From Capsulimonadaceae bacterium (GTDB lineage: Bacteria; Armatimonadota; Armatimonadia; Armatimonadales; Capsulimonadaceae): a stretch of DNA of 64,000 nucleotides. Position 1 is the first letter of the stretch. The number at the start of each line of letters is the position of its first letter. Positions 1 to 6,048 of the stretch are shown piece by piece. Both the position numbers and the translations under genes were made by a program. The stretch spans positions 1-64,000 of the forward strand of contig JARLGU010000041.1 of the NCBI GenBank assembly GCA_031292625.1, written 5' to 3'. The notes under the pieces are model-generated. The model had not been told where the DNA came from. It did not search any database and saw nothing but the letters and a program-made list of their open reading frames with translations.

Positions 1-128
1 CATGGCTCGCAATCAAAATCGAAGCCATCAAGAAGAGCGTCACGCTTTACCAAGCCCAAGCCGTCCCGTTTCGCGAGTTCTTGAAGCAGCAACTTCGGCT
101 ACCAGCGATCCCAGCCTATGCGGGATAA
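1..128 (+). CDS. C-terminal end of an unidentified protein (partial)
   Basis: An open frame enters the window from the left (first complete codon at 3-5) and stops at TAA 126-128, giving about 41 residues. The tail is rich in Lys, Gln and Leu and reads like a helical C-terminus (for example LYQAQAVPFREFLKQQLRLP). It converges on the minus-strand gene ending at 141, leaving only 12 bases between the stops. The family cannot be named from so short a piece. Codon use looks plausible, but an ORF this short could be chance. Confidence 0.35.
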   Translation, partial: WLAIKIEAIKKSVTLYQAQAVPFREFLKQQLRLPAIPAYAG

Positions 129-140
129 GCGAAAGTCCTA

Positions 141-2045
141 TTAATTCCCGGATGAGGTTGGAAGCACATATCCAGCAGAGCGCAGTGCCCGTCGAAATGC
201 CGCCATCTGGTCGTCTTGAACCACCAGGTGCCGCTCGCCCGCAAGTTTGCAGAGGCGCCCGGTGCGCGTATCACCCGCGATCATTGCTGCAATTGCTTTG
301 TCCTTACACTCGATCAAGCGCGCGATCCCGACGTCGGCGAGGAGATGACTTCGGCTTTCGAGATCGGAGAGGAAGTGGAGGACCGTATCGGGAAGTTCAT
401 GAGCGCTTCGGGCTTGCAGAAACTCTCGAAGCCTGGCGATGTCGTTTCCGGCTTCGAGAGCGGTCAACATCTTCGATTGATCTAGCTTCCATACAGAATC
501 GGAAACCTTCTCGGCATAGATGCCCAGTAGCAACATGTCGCCGCTTGGAAGTCGATCTCCTGCCTGGACGATCTCATGGTTGGGCAAAACGTGCAGCGCG
601 GGACGGCGTTCCAGCGGCGCTTCCACGTACGCATTGCTCTTTCCCAGGCAATAGGCCCCGAGTGAATTGACGCGAAAGGCCATCAAGCCATCGTAGCGGC
701 TGAAGAACTCCAGGTCGTCGGTACCCCACATATCCCTGTAATCTCTTGGGGCAAGCTCCGGTGGAATGTAGCAGACATCGATCAGGCCAAGAGTTGCTGC
801 GTATTCGAACAAAAAACACAGAAGATAGCGGCTTTCCAGGACTTGACCAGAACCGTCGTACCCGAGGCTTCCGTATTCCGCGCTGGCGACATAAAGAGAC
901 CAGAGATCCCGGGTGACTTCGAAATCGTAGTTCATGGCGGTCATATAGCGCTCAAAATCGCTCACCGACACCCATTTGCCAGGCGGGCAGTCACCGAGGG
1001 CCATGACAATCGGGGCTCGGCGTTTTGAGAGTGCCGTTAGCCCACGCTGTCCGCGCCCTGTCTGCCCCTTGATGACATCTATGCGGCGCAGTTCATCCAG
1101 GATTGTGCTCGACAGCCATTTCTTCCATAACGAGCGGAGGACGTCCACGGGAGGCATCCTCGTTGCCTTTTGTCCGGCGGCCGTGAGCCTGAGCTTCTTG
1201 CCGGAGATTTCGGCCAGACCGCCTCCCTGTAGCAGCATGGGCCACGCGAACGCTTTGATCGGTCCGATTTCGCTGCCGGTGTATTCGTCGTCATCGATCG
1301 TTTGCGGCTCGGAATAGAAGTCTCCGCCGCTGATCAACATACTGGTTTCTTTGAGCGTCGCACTGACCGGCAGCTTGGTTTTATCGCTAACCTGGATCTT
1401 CCCCGCTTCGACCGCGCGGAGCATCGAGACTGCGTCTTCCAGTGCAAGTCGCTCGGTTTCCAGTATCGTGACCGGCACGCTCATCTTGTTAACTTGCCGT
1501 TTGCGAGATCCGGTGTCGTAATCGTATGAGACCCATGCGACATCCACGGATGTGGGCGTTTCGTCCAGCACCGTAAGCGCTGTTGGTCGCGGCGGTGGGA
1601 CAAATTTGATGAGGCGCGCCCTCAGATCGGATGGCACACGGCCCTTAAAAATGAAGAGGTCGAGCACCGAAATGCTGTTGCTGCTTCCGTACATCGTACC
1701 AATCTTTTGCGCCGGGCTTCCCGTCGGCCTGCTGCCATATTTGGCAACAAAGCGTCCGGCATCGTAGACGCCGTCATCGGAATAGATCGTCTCCGCCACT
1801 GCCGCCTGTTGTAGATCGTCAAGGCGCGACCATAGGCGCGTAAGGCCATCGCCATCGTACTGCAGCACGATCACGGCGATCACATCGGCCTTTCGAGTGG
1901 GCTTCACAGGCTGGTTGAAGAGCGCCAGCATCTTCTTGAGCTCATCGACTGTAAAGTATTCCAGTATCTCTGTAAGGCTGTATTCGGTTTCTTGTGCTTG
2001 AATGATAGGCATTGGGCAGATACATCCTTTGGTCTCAGCGGCCAT
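141..2045 (-). CDS. SAP-like / XPB-type Helicase_C_3 domain protein
   Basis: About 634 residues. The N-terminal 80 residues (YSLTEILEYFTVDELKKMLA, then a PTRKADVI segment) resemble a SAP-type DNA-binding helix-extension-helix. The C-terminal part, from about LHVLPNHEIVQAGDRLPSG through LPDTVLHFLSDLESRS, resembles the Helicase_C_3 (XPB/Ssl2-like) module. No Walker A or DEAD motif is present, so this is not a helicase by itself. An upstream reading frame to 2120 overlaps a helicase remnant on the other strand and is probably not coding. I therefore chose ATG 2045, which has TTATAC 11 bases upstream and could be leaderless; ATG 2012 is the alternative. Proteins of this kind are seen near SWIM zinc-finger proteins in other bacteria, as here. 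Function unknown; DNA or helicase-associated by inference. Confidence 0.7.
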   Translation of the reverse strand: MAAETKGCICPMPIIQAQETEYSLTEILEYFTVDELKKMLALFNQPVKPTRKADVIAVIVLQYDGDGLTRLWSRLDDLQQAAVAETIYSDDGVYDAGRFVAKYGSRPTGSPAQKIGTMYGSSNSISVLDLFIFKGRVPSDLRARLIKFVPPPRPTALTVLDETPTSVDVAWVSYDYDTGSRKRQVNKMSVPVTILETERLALEDAVSMLRAVEAGKIQVSDKTKLPVSATLKETSMLISGGDFYSEPQTIDDDEYTGSEIGPIKAFAWPMLLQGGGLAEISGKKLRLTAAGQKATRMPPVDVLRSLWKKWLSSTILDELRRIDVIKGQTGRGQRGLTALSKRRAPIVMALGDCPPGKWVSVSDFERYMTAMNYDFEVTRDLWSLYVASAEYGSLGYDGSGQVLESRYLLCFLFEYAATLGLIDVCYIPPELAPRDYRDMWGTDDLEFFSRYDGLMAFRVNSLGAYCLGKSNAYVEAPLERRPALHVLPNHEIVQAGDRLPSGDMLLLGIYAEKVSDSVWKLDQSKMLTALEAGNDIARLREFLQARSAHELPDTVLHFLSDLESRSHLLADVGIARLIECKDKAIAAMIAGDTRTGRLCKLAGERHLVVQDDQMAAFRRALRSAGYVLPTSSGN

Positions 2046-2085
2046 GTCCAGGTTTGGTATAAGTTTACCTCGTCTGCGCATTCGC

Positions 2086-2367
2086 GTTCCACCCGATGCG
2101 CCGCGCGTGCTCGTTGGCATCGGTCGCTACGTTGGAGAAGGCTTGTACGACGCATGCCTCGGCACGCTCGCGCTGCCGATCTCGCTGAAGGGCGCAGTGG
2201 CGCAATACTCGGGGCGGCTCCACCGCGAGTACGATAGCAAGCGGGAAGTAATTGTCTACGATTACGTGGACGAGGCGGTGCCGATGCTGGCGCGAATGTT
2301 CGGAAAGCGGAAGGTGGGCTACTGCGCGATTGGGTACACGATATCGACAGGTGTAAGTTGCGTGTAA
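2086..2367 (+). pseudogene. Remnant of a DEAD/DEAH-box helicase (C-terminal end only)
   Basis: The plus-strand frame ending at the stop 2365-2367 encodes IGRYVGEGLYDACLGTL, then AVAQYSGRLHREYDSKREV, VYDYVDEAVPMLARMF and KVGYCAIGY. This is the helicase motif V/VI region and tail of the DEAD/DEAH (type III restriction-like) family, where the usual text is GEGFDDxRLDTLF, QYxGRLHR and YDYVD. Only the last 85-90 residues remain. Walker A, Walker B and the rest of both RecA lobes are absent. The fragment sits head to head with the XPB-like gene, whose promoter region abuts the break near 2086. The reading frame is still open, so the loss is recent or a short product persists. Family is fairly sure; status as remnant is inference. 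Confidence 0.7.
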
Positions 2368-2376
2368 GAAATCCTA

Positions 2377-3039
2377 TCAAGAACGACGCCGTCGCCAAAC
2401 CAATCCGCTGTCGCACACCTTCTTTACCTGCTGTTTTAGATAAAAGCTGACGTCATCGAGCGAAACGTCGGCACCATGCTTGAACAAGATAGGCTCGTCC
2501 ACGATGTCATCGAAGTATGTCAGGCTTTTCAGTGCCAGCGCCGAGTTGAAGCTGGGATACTTTTGATTTGCAAGATCGAGAAGCGCTGTCAAAGAGAACT
2601 GCCTAACAATGAAGTAAAGGTCGATGCAATCCTTTAGAGTTGCTCTTCCAACGACAGCTGTTAGTTTCATGCAGCCAATATCCTCGACCGAAGCGAGGAT
2701 AAGCGCGTCCGCGTCCAGCATGGGACGTACCAGCGGATAAGGATAGCCGAAATAGCTGATCTTGATGCTCTTGTCTACAACCATTGTCAGCGTGTCGCGT
2801 TCTTGCTGGATGGTCATGAGTTCATGACCAGATAGGATCGCCCCAAGCTCTTCTTGGAGCTTTTTAGGTTCGAACGACCCAATTGTGAAAAAGTAGAAAT
2901 CGATGCTGTCTCTGTGTCCGATCTGAAGCGCGAGACCGGTACCACCCGCCAGATAGAATCGACCCTTGAGCGGCGCAAATAGGGGCAAAATATTTCTACG
3001 CTTGTCATCAAGAATATCGAAGAACAGCCCAGCGCTCAT
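2377..3039 (-). CDS. AbiEii/AbiGii-like nucleotidyltransferase (toxin family)
   Basis: 220 residues. FYLAGGTGLALQIGHRDSID is the nucleotidyltransferase core of the AbiEii/DUF1814 family, and MKLTAVVGRATLKDCIDLYF matches the later conserved segment with its Lys and Asp. In type IV toxin-antitoxin pairs, relatives transfer nucleotides to RNA targets and the antitoxin is encoded just upstream. Here ATG 3039 overlaps the stop of the upstream small gene as ATGA (3036-3039), indicating translational coupling. Oddity: the metal-binding pair normally written D-x-D reads DFY, so the second Asp is a Tyr (codon TAC). The enzyme may be inactive or use a different ligand. Confidence 0.8.
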   Translation of the reverse strand: MSAGLFFDILDDKRRNILPLFAPLKGRFYLAGGTGLALQIGHRDSIDFYFFTIGSFEPKKLQEELGAILSGHELMTIQQERDTLTMVVDKSIKISYFGYPYPLVRPMLDADALILASVEDIGCMKLTAVVGRATLKDCIDLYFIVRQFSLTALLDLANQKYPSFNSALALKSLTYFDDIVDEPILFKHGADVSLDDVSFYLKQQVKKVCDSGLVWRRRRS

Positions 3040-3323
3040 ATAATTCCCATTCTCTGTGCCCTTGTCATAGGGGCAATGCCGAGAACGAGCGACCAGAGCG
3101 ACAGCGACTTCTTATCCCACTGCCCGAGCGGTATTTCATTCGCGAGGCGGGTCACCTCGTCTTGCCCATACTGTTTGAAGACCCAATTGATCGCGTCCTC
3201 GGTCCCGAAGTTGAGAACCTGCGCGACGATCAGCTTCTTGTGCGCGTCCACGTCGATCCGGTCCGTGTCGTACGACCAGAGCACGGCGCAGACGCTTTCG
3301 GGCAGATGGTTGGCTTCTTTCAT
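3036..3323 (-). CDS. Small protein upstream of the AbiEii-like toxin; probable antitoxin
   Basis: About 95 residues, soluble, with no transmembrane segment. The sequence (VLWSYDTDRIDVDAHKKLIV, then VLNFGTEDAINWVFKQYG) resembles the DUF6922-type proteins that often precede AbiEii-like nucleotidyltransferases. A perfect TATAAT at 3330-3335 lies 6 bases before ATG 3323, so the message is likely leaderless. The 4-base overlap with the next gene supports a two-gene toxin-antitoxin style operon. The antitoxin role rests on position and resemblance only; no classic DNA-binding motif is evident by eye. Confidence 0.6.
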   Translation of the reverse strand: MKEANHLPESVCAVLWSYDTDRIDVDAHKKLIVAQVLNFGTEDAINWVFKQYGQDEVTRLANEIPLGQWDKKSLSLWSLVLGIAPMTRAQRMGII

Positions 3324-3329
3324 ACTAAG

Positions 3330-3335
3330 ATTATA
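3330..3335 (-). promoter_or_regulatory. -10 box TATAAT of the toxin-antitoxin-like operon
   Basis: Perfect TATAAT on the minus strand, 6 bases upstream of ATG 3323. No convincing -35 box at 16-18 bases and no Shine-Dalgarno sequence fits between, so transcription would begin at or next to the start codon. Confidence 0.6.
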
Positions 3336-3446
3336 ACAGATTCTCAAACATGTGACGCAACAAGGCGGGCTGCGTTGTGAGGCGAACGACGGTAGAGCGT
3401 AGTTCAGTTATCGCTACCCGTTGTCTGCTTGAAAATGAAGACAGAA

Positions 3447-5213
3447 CTACAGCCATTTTTCCTTTTCGAGGAGCTTGATGAAATTGCGTTTACGCCGGAA
3501 CTCGGCGTAAAATGTGCCGACAAGCTGCAGGAATTCGTCTCTGCGACCAACAGGCGCCAGTATCTCCTGGCATTTCCGCAGTAGCTCGACCGGGTGTTCG
3601 TAGTTCCCGCTGCTCGCGTTTTCTAAGAGAGATTGGGCAATGGCACGATAGACCCGCACTGCGTCGTCAGGCTGAGCTTCCGCCCGGCGGCCAGCAAGCT
3701 GAATCCATAAGTCTTGCCCGATTTCATTGCCCTTCGACGCTGAAATGGCCTCGTTCCATGCTTCATCGTTGCGGCCTTCGTAAAGAAGGACTTTCACGAT
3801 CTCGGGAGTTGCCGAATACCAGTAGCGTCTGCCGGACGTTGATTTCGGATCCTTCTGTCTGTCACGCAGAAACTGCCAGGCCTGTTCCCGCCATTTAGGC
3901 CACGTTTGCGTTCGAGAGGCATCGTGCTCCAGATATTGAAATCCATCGAGCGTCGGTTTATCCGTAAATCGCTGCCACGCCGCGTCCATCTCATCCTCGA
4001 AGCGCTCCCGTCGGTGATAATCTTCGATCAAAAATTCGAGGAGGCGCTCGTCGGTGTCCTGAGGGAATGCCTTGCGCCCACGCTCCGCCCAGTCGAGCGC
4101 TTCGTCGTAGCGCCCAGCTTTCCGGTAGATTTGCGCGATTGTCAGATACGAATAGTCGTGGGACAAGTCCCGGCTTTTGACGGCCACAAGCGCGTCGACG
4201 TTGCCTGTAGCGCCCGCTATCGCTTCCATCAAGCGTGTAATGCGGTATCGCGACGGATTATATCCTTCTTCGCTGGAACCTGGGCCGAGAGCGGGCAATT
4301 GCTCCCATTGCTCCGATGCGAGCGCGAGCAAGGCCGCCTGTCCCTTATCGCCAAGTACGCTCTCATAAGACGGCAGCTCATGAAGAAAATCGAAATACTC
4401 CGAATACGCCAGCGTCATCGTCCAGTCGAAAAGGCGCTTCGCAAGTTCCCCGGGGACGGGATGTGCAACCTTGCACGCCCGTAGATAGAGCTTCGGTATC
4501 CGAACGAGTTCGCCGCCGACATTTCCGCCGGAATCGTCGATCTGGCCGACAGTCTCGTCGAGGCGGGCGACTGCGTATTCGATCAATCCCATCGCATCGT
4601 TTGCGTATCCGTCATCGATCAAGTCCTGCAGGGAATCGAGGACGCGGCTCATACTCGTCGACCACTCGTGCGCCGCGGCGTACTCGATGTAGCCATGCGG
4701 CACGATTCGATCGATAGCTTTACGGTAAGTTCCGATGTCTGGTCCGCTTTCGGTCGATCGCGCGACACGAAGAAGCAACTCCTCTCGCAGACCTGCGTCT
4801 TTATGGATTTGCTGCACCAGCATATCGACGAGCGCCTCGCGATCGATTGACCGCAAGTACGCGCAAACATCCTCCATTGTCACCGTGGGACGAGCACGTT
4901 CGATCGGGGCGGCGCCGAGGGCATCGCCCTTTTCAAGCCAGACGATGCCGACAGCAACGCAGTGTTTACAAAAATCTCCTCCGCTACCGATCGGGCAATC
5001 GCAAGCGTAGTGGAGCTTGTTGTCCTCGGCCCAGATCTCGACGTGATATTCCTCTCTTCCTGCAACGTCTGCGGCGATCCGTTCGCCTTCTCGAAACAAG
5101 CTATGGACGCGGCCGTTCGCAGCGTACCGCCGGCCGCGTGTAAACGATTGGCTCGATGCAAAGGTCGGTAGTGTTTCTCTCGTAAGGAGCGTATCTAGTT
5201 CGGTCGTAGCCAA
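3447..5213 (-). CDS. SWIM zinc-finger protein with helical (DUF6880/TPR-like) C-terminus
   Basis: About 588 residues. Near residues 50-90 is a SWIM finger: HYACDCPIGSGGDFCKHCVA supplies the CxC...CxH ligands. The rest is helical with TPR-like pairs (IAQIYRKAGRYDEALDWAER) and resembles DUF6880-type proteins. SWIM fingers bind DNA or proteins. The start is decided by the sequence: TTG 5213 follows AAGGAGAG by about 8 bases, whereas the upstream ATG at 5315 has no ribosome site. It lies on the same strand as the XPB-like and toxin genes, in a block that looks like accessory DNA. Specific function unknown. Confidence 0.8.
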   Translation of the reverse strand: MATTELDTLLTRETLPTFASSQSFTRGRRYAANGRVHSLFREGERIAADVAGREEYHVEIWAEDNKLHYACDCPIGSGGDFCKHCVAVGIVWLEKGDALGAAPIERARPTVTMEDVCAYLRSIDREALVDMLVQQIHKDAGLREELLLRVARSTESGPDIGTYRKAIDRIVPHGYIEYAAAHEWSTSMSRVLDSLQDLIDDGYANDAMGLIEYAVARLDETVGQIDDSGGNVGGELVRIPKLYLRACKVAHPVPGELAKRLFDWTMTLAYSEYFDFLHELPSYESVLGDKGQAALLALASEQWEQLPALGPGSSEEGYNPSRYRITRLMEAIAGATGNVDALVAVKSRDLSHDYSYLTIAQIYRKAGRYDEALDWAERGRKAFPQDTDERLLEFLIEDYHRRERFEDEMDAAWQRFTDKPTLDGFQYLEHDASRTQTWPKWREQAWQFLRDRQKDPKSTSGRRYWYSATPEIVKVLLYEGRNDEAWNEAISASKGNEIGQDLWIQLAGRRAEAQPDDAVRVYRAIAQSLLENASSGNYEHPVELLRKCQEILAPVGRRDEFLQLVGTFYAEFRRKRNFIKLLEKEKWL

Positions 5214-5698
5214 GGCGAGAACTCTCCTTGCTTGATGGTAATTTGGCAGTAGAATACCCGCAGTACATTCTGTTTGACCCACGAAACACGGCGGAACCTC
5301 GGCACGTTCGTACATCTCTGGCCCTGCTCCCAATAATTTGTCCCACAGTGGCCGACGTACGAATGGTGTCTACCTTGACGGAGTATTCTCCAACGGTATT
5401 GAAGCGCTCAACAGCCTAACGGTTGGTCAGGCAACGCGGTAACGATATTTAACATCAAGCACTTTCGTGCAATCTCAGCCATAACGACGATCCAGCCAGA
5501 TGAACGAATTTAGAAGTTCCGTCGATCAGGACGATAACGAGTAGGCGCTGAATAATGACGAGCGGGCGAAATGGGAGAGCAAATCTGAGTATTTGTTACC
5601 ACGCGACGGCTGGTTCCGAGGTAGAATCTGGTTTGAGCATGATCCCCGATTTAGTAACACGCCCTCAGATTGTTGTTTTGCGTCCGCAATGCAACGCC

Positions 5699-5818
5699 AA
5701 CAGAGTAGAAAAACCGCAATAATTGTCTATTTAGTAAGATAATCCTCTGCATCAGAAGGTCCTAGGTTCGAATCCTAGTCCGGCAGCCATCGGTTGGAAG
5801 GTGCCTTTCTACTCTGTT
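5699..5818. repeat. 13-bp perfect inverted repeat flanking the tRNA fragment
   Basis: AACAGAGTAGAAA at 5699-5711 and its exact reverse complement TTTCTACTCTGTT at 5806-5818 enclose about 94 bases that contain the tRNA 3' fragment. A 13-base perfect match at this distance is unlikely by chance. The right copy lies inside the loop of the downstream terminator. It may be the footprint of a small mobile element or recombination arms. Confidence 0.6.
5743..5789 (+). tRNA. 3' half of a tRNA gene, probably tRNA-Gln (fragment)
   Basis: The T arm is canonical: stem CTAGG, loop TTCGAAT, stem CCTAG (5763-5779). It is followed by acceptor strand TCCGGCA, discriminator G and encoded CCA ending at 5789. 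The variable loop AGGTC and the 3' anticodon strand TCAGA precede it. Upstream there is no matching 5' acceptor (TGCCGGA), no D arm and no 5' anticodon strand, so only the 3' half exists. The pair implied by A72 and G73 (T1-A72, G73) and the possible loop CTCTGCA would fit tRNA-Gln(CUG), though C at position 37 is unusual. Such 3' fragments are typical of attachment sites left by tRNA-targeting integrases. Confidence 0.7.
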
Positions 5819-5845
5819 AAATGTGCAGGAAGGCACTTTTTGTTT
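5798..5845 (+). terminator. Rho-independent terminator after the tRNA fragment
   Basis: AAGGTGCCTT (5798-5807) pairs with AAGGCACTTT (5830-5839) over 10 pairs with one G-U, around a 22-base loop, followed by TTTTTGTTT. It lies 9 bases after the CCA end, as expected for a native tRNA terminator. Confidence 0.65.
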
Positions 5846-6048
5846 GTCACTGACAGCTATTGACATGACCCGTTTTTCTCTGTAAGGTGTGTGGTGTCAC
5901 AGGGTGTCAGCTTCAGCTCATAAGGTATCAGCTTTTGAAGAAGACAACTCCAGCCAAAATCCGCATAACAGACGTGATGTCCGGCTTCATGAGGCCCAAT
6001 CCGGGCAACAGCCAGTCGTCGATCGGTGCGCCTTTTGTGGCTCCATGC

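Follow-up and report, generated by a model that had tools for sequence, protein, structure and literature searches.

The window analysed here is a stretch of 64,000 nt (C6:1-64000) whose left edge is the end of contig C6. It carries at positions 5745-5789 what we regard, with a probability of about 93%, as the displaced 3' part of a tRNA-Gln(CUG) gene, sitting where an integrative island of ~11.4 kb, now decayed and at a later time split by an insertion sequence (IS), has its right edge, with the remnant of a second, related element beyond it. According to this reading, the element would have brought an attP site in which a terminator came after a duplicate of the tRNA 3' half, and a tyrosine integrase would have crossed this site over with the anticodon loop of tRNA-Gln. 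The tRNA gene would have been restored at the island's left edge (C26:4826-4901), and its former 3' end displaced to the opposite edge. The genes in between are those for a TOTE primase-helicase, the XPB and AbiEii-like pairs and a SWIM protein, together with a truncated integrase. After the island had been split by the IS, these genes would have come to lie on two contigs. The same tRNA-Gln would have been struck more than once: a second related element, since stripped of its body, would have left its terminator and integrase leader, which make up its left end, to the right of the orphan half. Both tRNA copies, the integrase remnant, the tandem left end, the sister islands and the IS ends with their matching duplication are apparent in the DNA itself; the joining of the two contigs, the crossover chemistry at tRNA-Gln and the order of the two insertions we infer.

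Orphan tRNA-Gln half and its intact counterpart

The segment at 5745-5789 (plus strand) reads CTCTGCATCAGAAGGTCCTAGGTTCGAATCCTAGTCCGGCAGCCA and extends from the anticodon loop to the CCA, including the 3' anticodon stem, variable loop, T arm, 3' acceptor strand and discriminator G, while the 5' half is missing. An earlier note on this DNA had recognised such an orphan 3' half and placed its start at 5743; the half is real, and identity with the intact gene begins at 5745 and ends at 5789. No tRNA was called in the window by ARAGORN or Rfam, and the orphan half was detected by neither program.

The note had also called for a whole-genome search with the 45-base fragment. When the 5.77-Mb genome was searched with up to three mismatches, the 45-mer was found at exactly two places, the window and C26:4826-4870 (minus strand), with 44 of 45 bases identical and the lone mismatch just 3' of the anticodon. 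A chance origin of this match is excluded, because it occurs at two genome places only, the reversed-pattern control yielded no match in the whole genome at the same threshold, and the 26-nt 3' part had none in 100 shuffles. The second copy sits in an intact tRNA-Gln gene with anticodon CTG (C26:4826-4901, minus strand). The proposed isotype, tRNA-Gln(CUG), was thus correct, as was the prediction of an intact tRNA upstream with the same 3' end: there is one such copy, in the right orientation and reached leftward across the contig edge. The one-base difference between the two copies counts against reading the orphan half as a displaced end; taken together with the evidence below, we consider it to be the right attachment site of the left island.

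Nothing matching the island edge was found in the phage collection. To the left of the orphan half, AACAGAGTAGAAA (5699-5711) is the reverse complement of TTTCTACTCTGTT (5806-5818, within the terminator), and this inverted pair may be an integrase site or else a leftover from an inverted element end.

Proposed joining of two contigs through an insertion sequence

The contig breaks inside an IS of 1118 bp, the right end of which, with the 3' end of a DDE transposase gene (DDE_5/DDE_Tnp_1) and a terminal inverted repeat, occupies positions 1-140 (plus strand) and is identical to C41:1-140 and C36:1-140. C6:1-140 and C26:1-139 are opposite ends of one such IS, whose complete copy is found at C41:1-1118. 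The 5-bp target duplication TTAAT at 141-145, which contains the stop codon of the XPB partner gene, flanks the IS on both the C26 and the C6 side; among the IS ends of the same polarity (C26, C27 and the far end of C6), this flank occurs at C26 only. Another pair of ends, on C41 and C36, shares the flank ATGAA, so this IS as a rule duplicates 5 bp of its target. It is present at the contig ends C6:1, C6:198860-198999, C26:1, C27:34807-34947, C36:1 and C41:1-1118, and accounts for several assembly breaks, of which C26/C6 (by TTAAT) and C41/C36 (by ATGAA) can be joined through their duplications.

Because the IS ends match and carry the same TTAAT duplication, C6:1 and C26:1 can be taken to represent one locus split by the IS. 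After joining, with the IS and one duplication discounted, the stop codon of the XPB partner lies 8 nt before the GTG of XPB; the join is also biologically sensible, since it restores the order seen in 10 other genomes, in which the partner gene directly precedes XPB. The joined locus consists of tRNA-Gln, integrase remnant, TOTE primase-helicase, XPB, [IS], XPB partner, TOTE remnant, AbiEii-like gene with DUF6922, SWIM protein and orphan half, and the computed distance from the tRNA end to the orphan half is 11,408 bp. The contig break caused by the IS had been overlooked in the earlier note, together with the tandem left end and the sister tRNA-Lys insertion described below.

Integrase remnant and cargo genes

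An integrase gene, expected near one edge of the element, was found at the tRNA edge, with its start codon ~190 nt past tRNA-Gln (ATG at C26:4635, equal to L003:4635). Only ~111 residues with the N-terminal integrase domain (PF02899) are left; since no catalytic domain remains, the island is probably unable to excise by itself. A deletion has fused the integrase remnant to the TOTE gene in a different reading frame. The TOTE gene matches the AEP-TOTE profile only from position 52 on, the first ~51 profile positions having been lost at the integrase junction. This N-terminally truncated C26 protein matches AEP-TOTE (PF22548, E 8e-61) and ResIII (E 1.5e-23), and has both the primase domain and the helicase that characterise members of the TOTE conflict system.

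On the window side, the XPB partner protein (141-2120, minus strand; the longest ORF, with the true start probably later) has a Helicase_C_3-like C-terminal part (PF13625, E 5.5e-5, below the curated cut-off). A remnant of a TOTE helicase C-terminus (2083-2343, plus strand), 79% identical to residues 573-661 of the longer C26 copy and oriented like the C26 gene, has the XPB partner on one side and the AbiEii-like gene on the other, and points to an older rearrangement within the island. It is followed by an AbiEii-like nucleotidyltransferase, the toxin-like member of a pair (2377-3039, minus strand; PF08843, E 8e-10), its DUF6922 partner (3036-3347, minus strand; PF21956, E 5e-13), and a SWIM zinc-finger/DUF6880 protein (3447-5333, minus strand; Pfam), a candidate defence protein (PADLOC PDC-S62, E 3.5e-51). 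The helicase remnant, toxin-like pair and SWIM/XPB genes, which had been assigned to the element from the window, do all lie between tRNA-Gln and the orphan half.

Conflict and defence genes are a usual cargo of islands, and the genes found here look like putative conflict or defence genes. AEP-TOTE is present in only 8 of the 61 genomes searched, and the G002 copy at 4208421 lies inside a tRNA-Lys island, with tRNA-Lys on one side of it and the orphan half on the other. Plasmids of rhizobia and others often carry TOTE relatives, and most of these plasmids are predicted to be conjugative; XPB relatives (best matches 50-67%) are spread over many phyla. In the literature collection searched, no paper on the TOTE conflict system was found.

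Terminator and remnant of a probable second element

The terminator noticed earlier after the orphan half is an intrinsic one at about 5797-5842 (plus strand), a hairpin with a T-run and an MFE of -20.9 kcal/mol. Its core occurs without mismatch at only four genome places, namely after tRNA-Gln, after tRNA-Lys and after the orphan half of each, and for this reason the terminator most likely arrived with the elements. It is followed at 5843-5985 (plus strand) by an integrase leader that lacks its integrase, has a promoter-like TTGACA and TCAGCTTTTG repeats, and probably represents the left-end remnant of a second tandem element. Positions 5745-5972 are 88% identical to C26:4870-4643 over 228 nt including the tRNA part, and near-identical for ~80 nt from 5790 onward; the similarity takes in the promoter-like and repeat motifs and stops 8 nt before the integrase ATG.

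As the similarity runs through the terminator and leader to 8 nt before the integrase start codon, the second left end would begin at the orphan half. The sequence from 5790 onward is unlikely to be native flank, because native flank would be expected not to resemble what follows the intact tRNA, and at the tRNA-Gln of G002 the two do differ. An island edge at 5789 had been proposed in the earlier note, and the left element does end there; however, the ~180 nt to the right, terminator included, are also of element type, so that at 5789 two tandem elements most likely meet, rather than an element and the native chromosome. The second element retains only its terminator and integrase leader. Its integrase and body are gone, it has no tRNA-Gln piece at its right end, and a third tRNA-Gln fragment, which would close it, was not found in the genome with up to three mismatches.

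Another contig of this genome carries a comparable structure at C62 (L020):419-3234, where an intact tRNA-Lys(CTT) at 419-494 and an orphan tRNA-Lys 3' part at ~2966-3010 are accompanied by a Fic gene and by remnants of TOTE and SWIM genes. This is a strongly deleted sister island of the same element family in tRNA-Lys(CUU). An extra SWIM scrap is present after its orphan half. A similar leader also follows this orphan half, and in the tRNA-Lys island of G002 the orphan half has integrase scraps on its right; for this integrase family, inserting more than once at the same tRNA therefore looks usual.

Integrase family in related genomes

In relatives, integrases of this family are located ~115-215 bp after intact tRNA-Gln, -Lys and -Thr genes: after tRNA-Gln(CTG) in G002 and G004 (decayed), after tRNA-Lys(CTT) in G002, G007 and G014 (broken), and after tRNA-Thr in G014 and G004 (decayed). 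Complete enzymes of the family are encoded in G002, G007 and G014. Orphan halves in the correct orientation were found 82 kb from tRNA-Gln and 144 kb from tRNA-Lys in G002, and 50 kb from tRNA-Lys in G007, and the tRNA repeats in these cases start at the anticodon loop or its 5' border. The orphan tRNA-Lys half of G007 (G007:C2:1036981-1037022) differs from the intact gene at two T-stem bases that pair together, a compensatory change, as if one copy had come from the tRNA of another host. The 82-kb island of G002 has GGTCATAG repeats at both ends (L060:15438-15475 and L061:8870-9015) and CATAGCTTTGGCG inverted at its right end, and these repeats look like integrase arm sites; a loose scan of left ends for arm motifs gave no usable signal.

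The comparison with relatives lacking the left block, which the earlier note had proposed, was made for this integrase family in genus g3, with G002 against G006. G006 is an empty site for the tRNA-Gln island of G002. On the upstream side its gene is 87% identical to the left flank in G002 as far as the CCA end of the tRNA, while the G006 sequence that begins at the anticodon corresponds to the right flank, terminator included, so that integration by this family is directly evidenced. In relatives, no conserved gene order was found around tRNA-Gln (the ribF/ruvB side and the gcv side), and hence there is no empty site at the same locus for the genome under study. The adjacency of phosphoribosyltransferase and gcvT was considered as a marker of native DNA and rejected, as it was not seen in relatives.

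We tentatively suggest, at rather less than even odds, that one integrase family reads the anticodon stem-loop CTGACTCTnnATCAG, which is common to tRNA-Lys(CUU) and the tRNA-Gln(CUG) of this genome, and so may hop between tRNA genes, each time bringing its own tRNA 3' half and terminator. The idea arises because elements with the same terminator occupy both tRNA genes here, and because the N-terminal domain of the Gln-sited remnant is closer to the Lys-sited enzyme of G002 (53% identity) than to its Gln-sited one (45%). The tRNA of the latter has an anticodon stem different from that of CTGACTCTnnATCAG.

Alternative explanations

It is unlikely that there was a single element without a tandem, the 180 nt to the right of the orphan half being native tRNA-Gln flank and the element having earlier captured the tRNA 3' half, terminator and leader as a long attP. 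The similarity in the tRNA-Lys island of G002, which also runs ~75 nt past the tRNA and through the terminator, would agree with such a capture, but here it spans the promoter-like and repeat motifs almost to the integrase start codon. Moreover, the same terminator and leader recur at the unrelated tRNA-Lys locus, integrase scraps lie beyond the G002 tRNA-Lys orphan half, and the native flank at the tRNA-Gln of G002 is different, all of which argue for two tandem elements.

That C6 and C26 are not neighbours, and that the window is only the far end of a larger tRNA-Gln island, is very improbable: other pairings are formally possible with the IS at several contig ends, but TTAAT singles out C26 among the candidate ends, and the join yields the 8-nt XPB spacing and the gene order of the 10 other genomes. 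We give hardly any credence to a decayed or partly duplicated tRNA gene with no mobile element involved. Although tRNA scraps occur in many genomes and the integrase is broken here, in five independent cases the break falls at the anticodon loop and an intact tRNA of like orientation lies upstream, and in four of the five an integrase of one family follows the tRNA, the fifth being the C62 tRNA-Lys remnant.

Comparison with known systems

Insertion of islands into tRNA genes with crossover at the anticodon loop is a textbook, common event, and the novelty is confined to the details of this well-resolved tRNA-Gln case. Starting from a 45-base scrap, it was possible to map how one tRNA was hit repeatedly, how the integrase was lost, and how an IS that came later broke the assembly. 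A tRNA-targeting integrase family is thereby seen in a little-studied bacterial family and its relatives, with TOTE genes riding in its islands (the Gln and Lys islands of this genome and the Lys island of G002). The structure resolved over two contigs, and an integrase family possibly using several tRNAs with like anticodon stems, may be of use to specialists.

In Islander, an island is recognised from an intact tDNA and a displaced fragment with an integrase lying between the two; 2083 islands with anticodon crossover and 125 tandems of two or more are counted there (PMC4383910). Judged by its rules, the intact tDNA and its own fragment lie in one replicon, as deduced through the IS join; the 3' fragment is downstream in the same orientation (tRNA plus, then fragment plus, 11.4 kb apart after the join); and the length of 11,408 bp falls within 2-200 kb. 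However, a complete tyrosine integrase (PF00589) is required and only the N-terminal domain was found, so that the island is classed as decayed rather than active. It resembles the anticodon-centred class A of Islander (PMC4383910) in its intact tRNA, displaced 3' fragment of the same orientation, integrase beside the tRNA and crossover at the anticodon loop, and differs in that its integrase is truncated, the element brings a terminator with the tRNA end, and the far edge meets the left end of a second element. Like the tandem arrays (PMC4383910), it has two element left ends at one tRNA with a tRNA fragment between; unlike them, the second element falls outside the tandem rule, having kept terminator and leader but no integrase, body or third tRNA fragment within three mismatches.

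Partial tRNA genes of integration origin have been described, one example being the copy of Gln-TTG that lies next to island PYG1 in Pyrococcus yayanosii (PMC9897764). PYG1 likewise has a 44-bp repeat of the tRNA-Gln 3' end at its far edge, whereas it is archaeal, uses Gln-TTG, measures ~21 kb and is not decayed in the manner of the present island. Finally, in comparison with the TOTE conflict system (Pfam AEP-TOTE, PF22548), the island protein is missing the start of the profile at the integrase junction, and shares with that system the TOTE primase domain, the DEAD/ResIII helicase and relatives on many conjugative plasmids.
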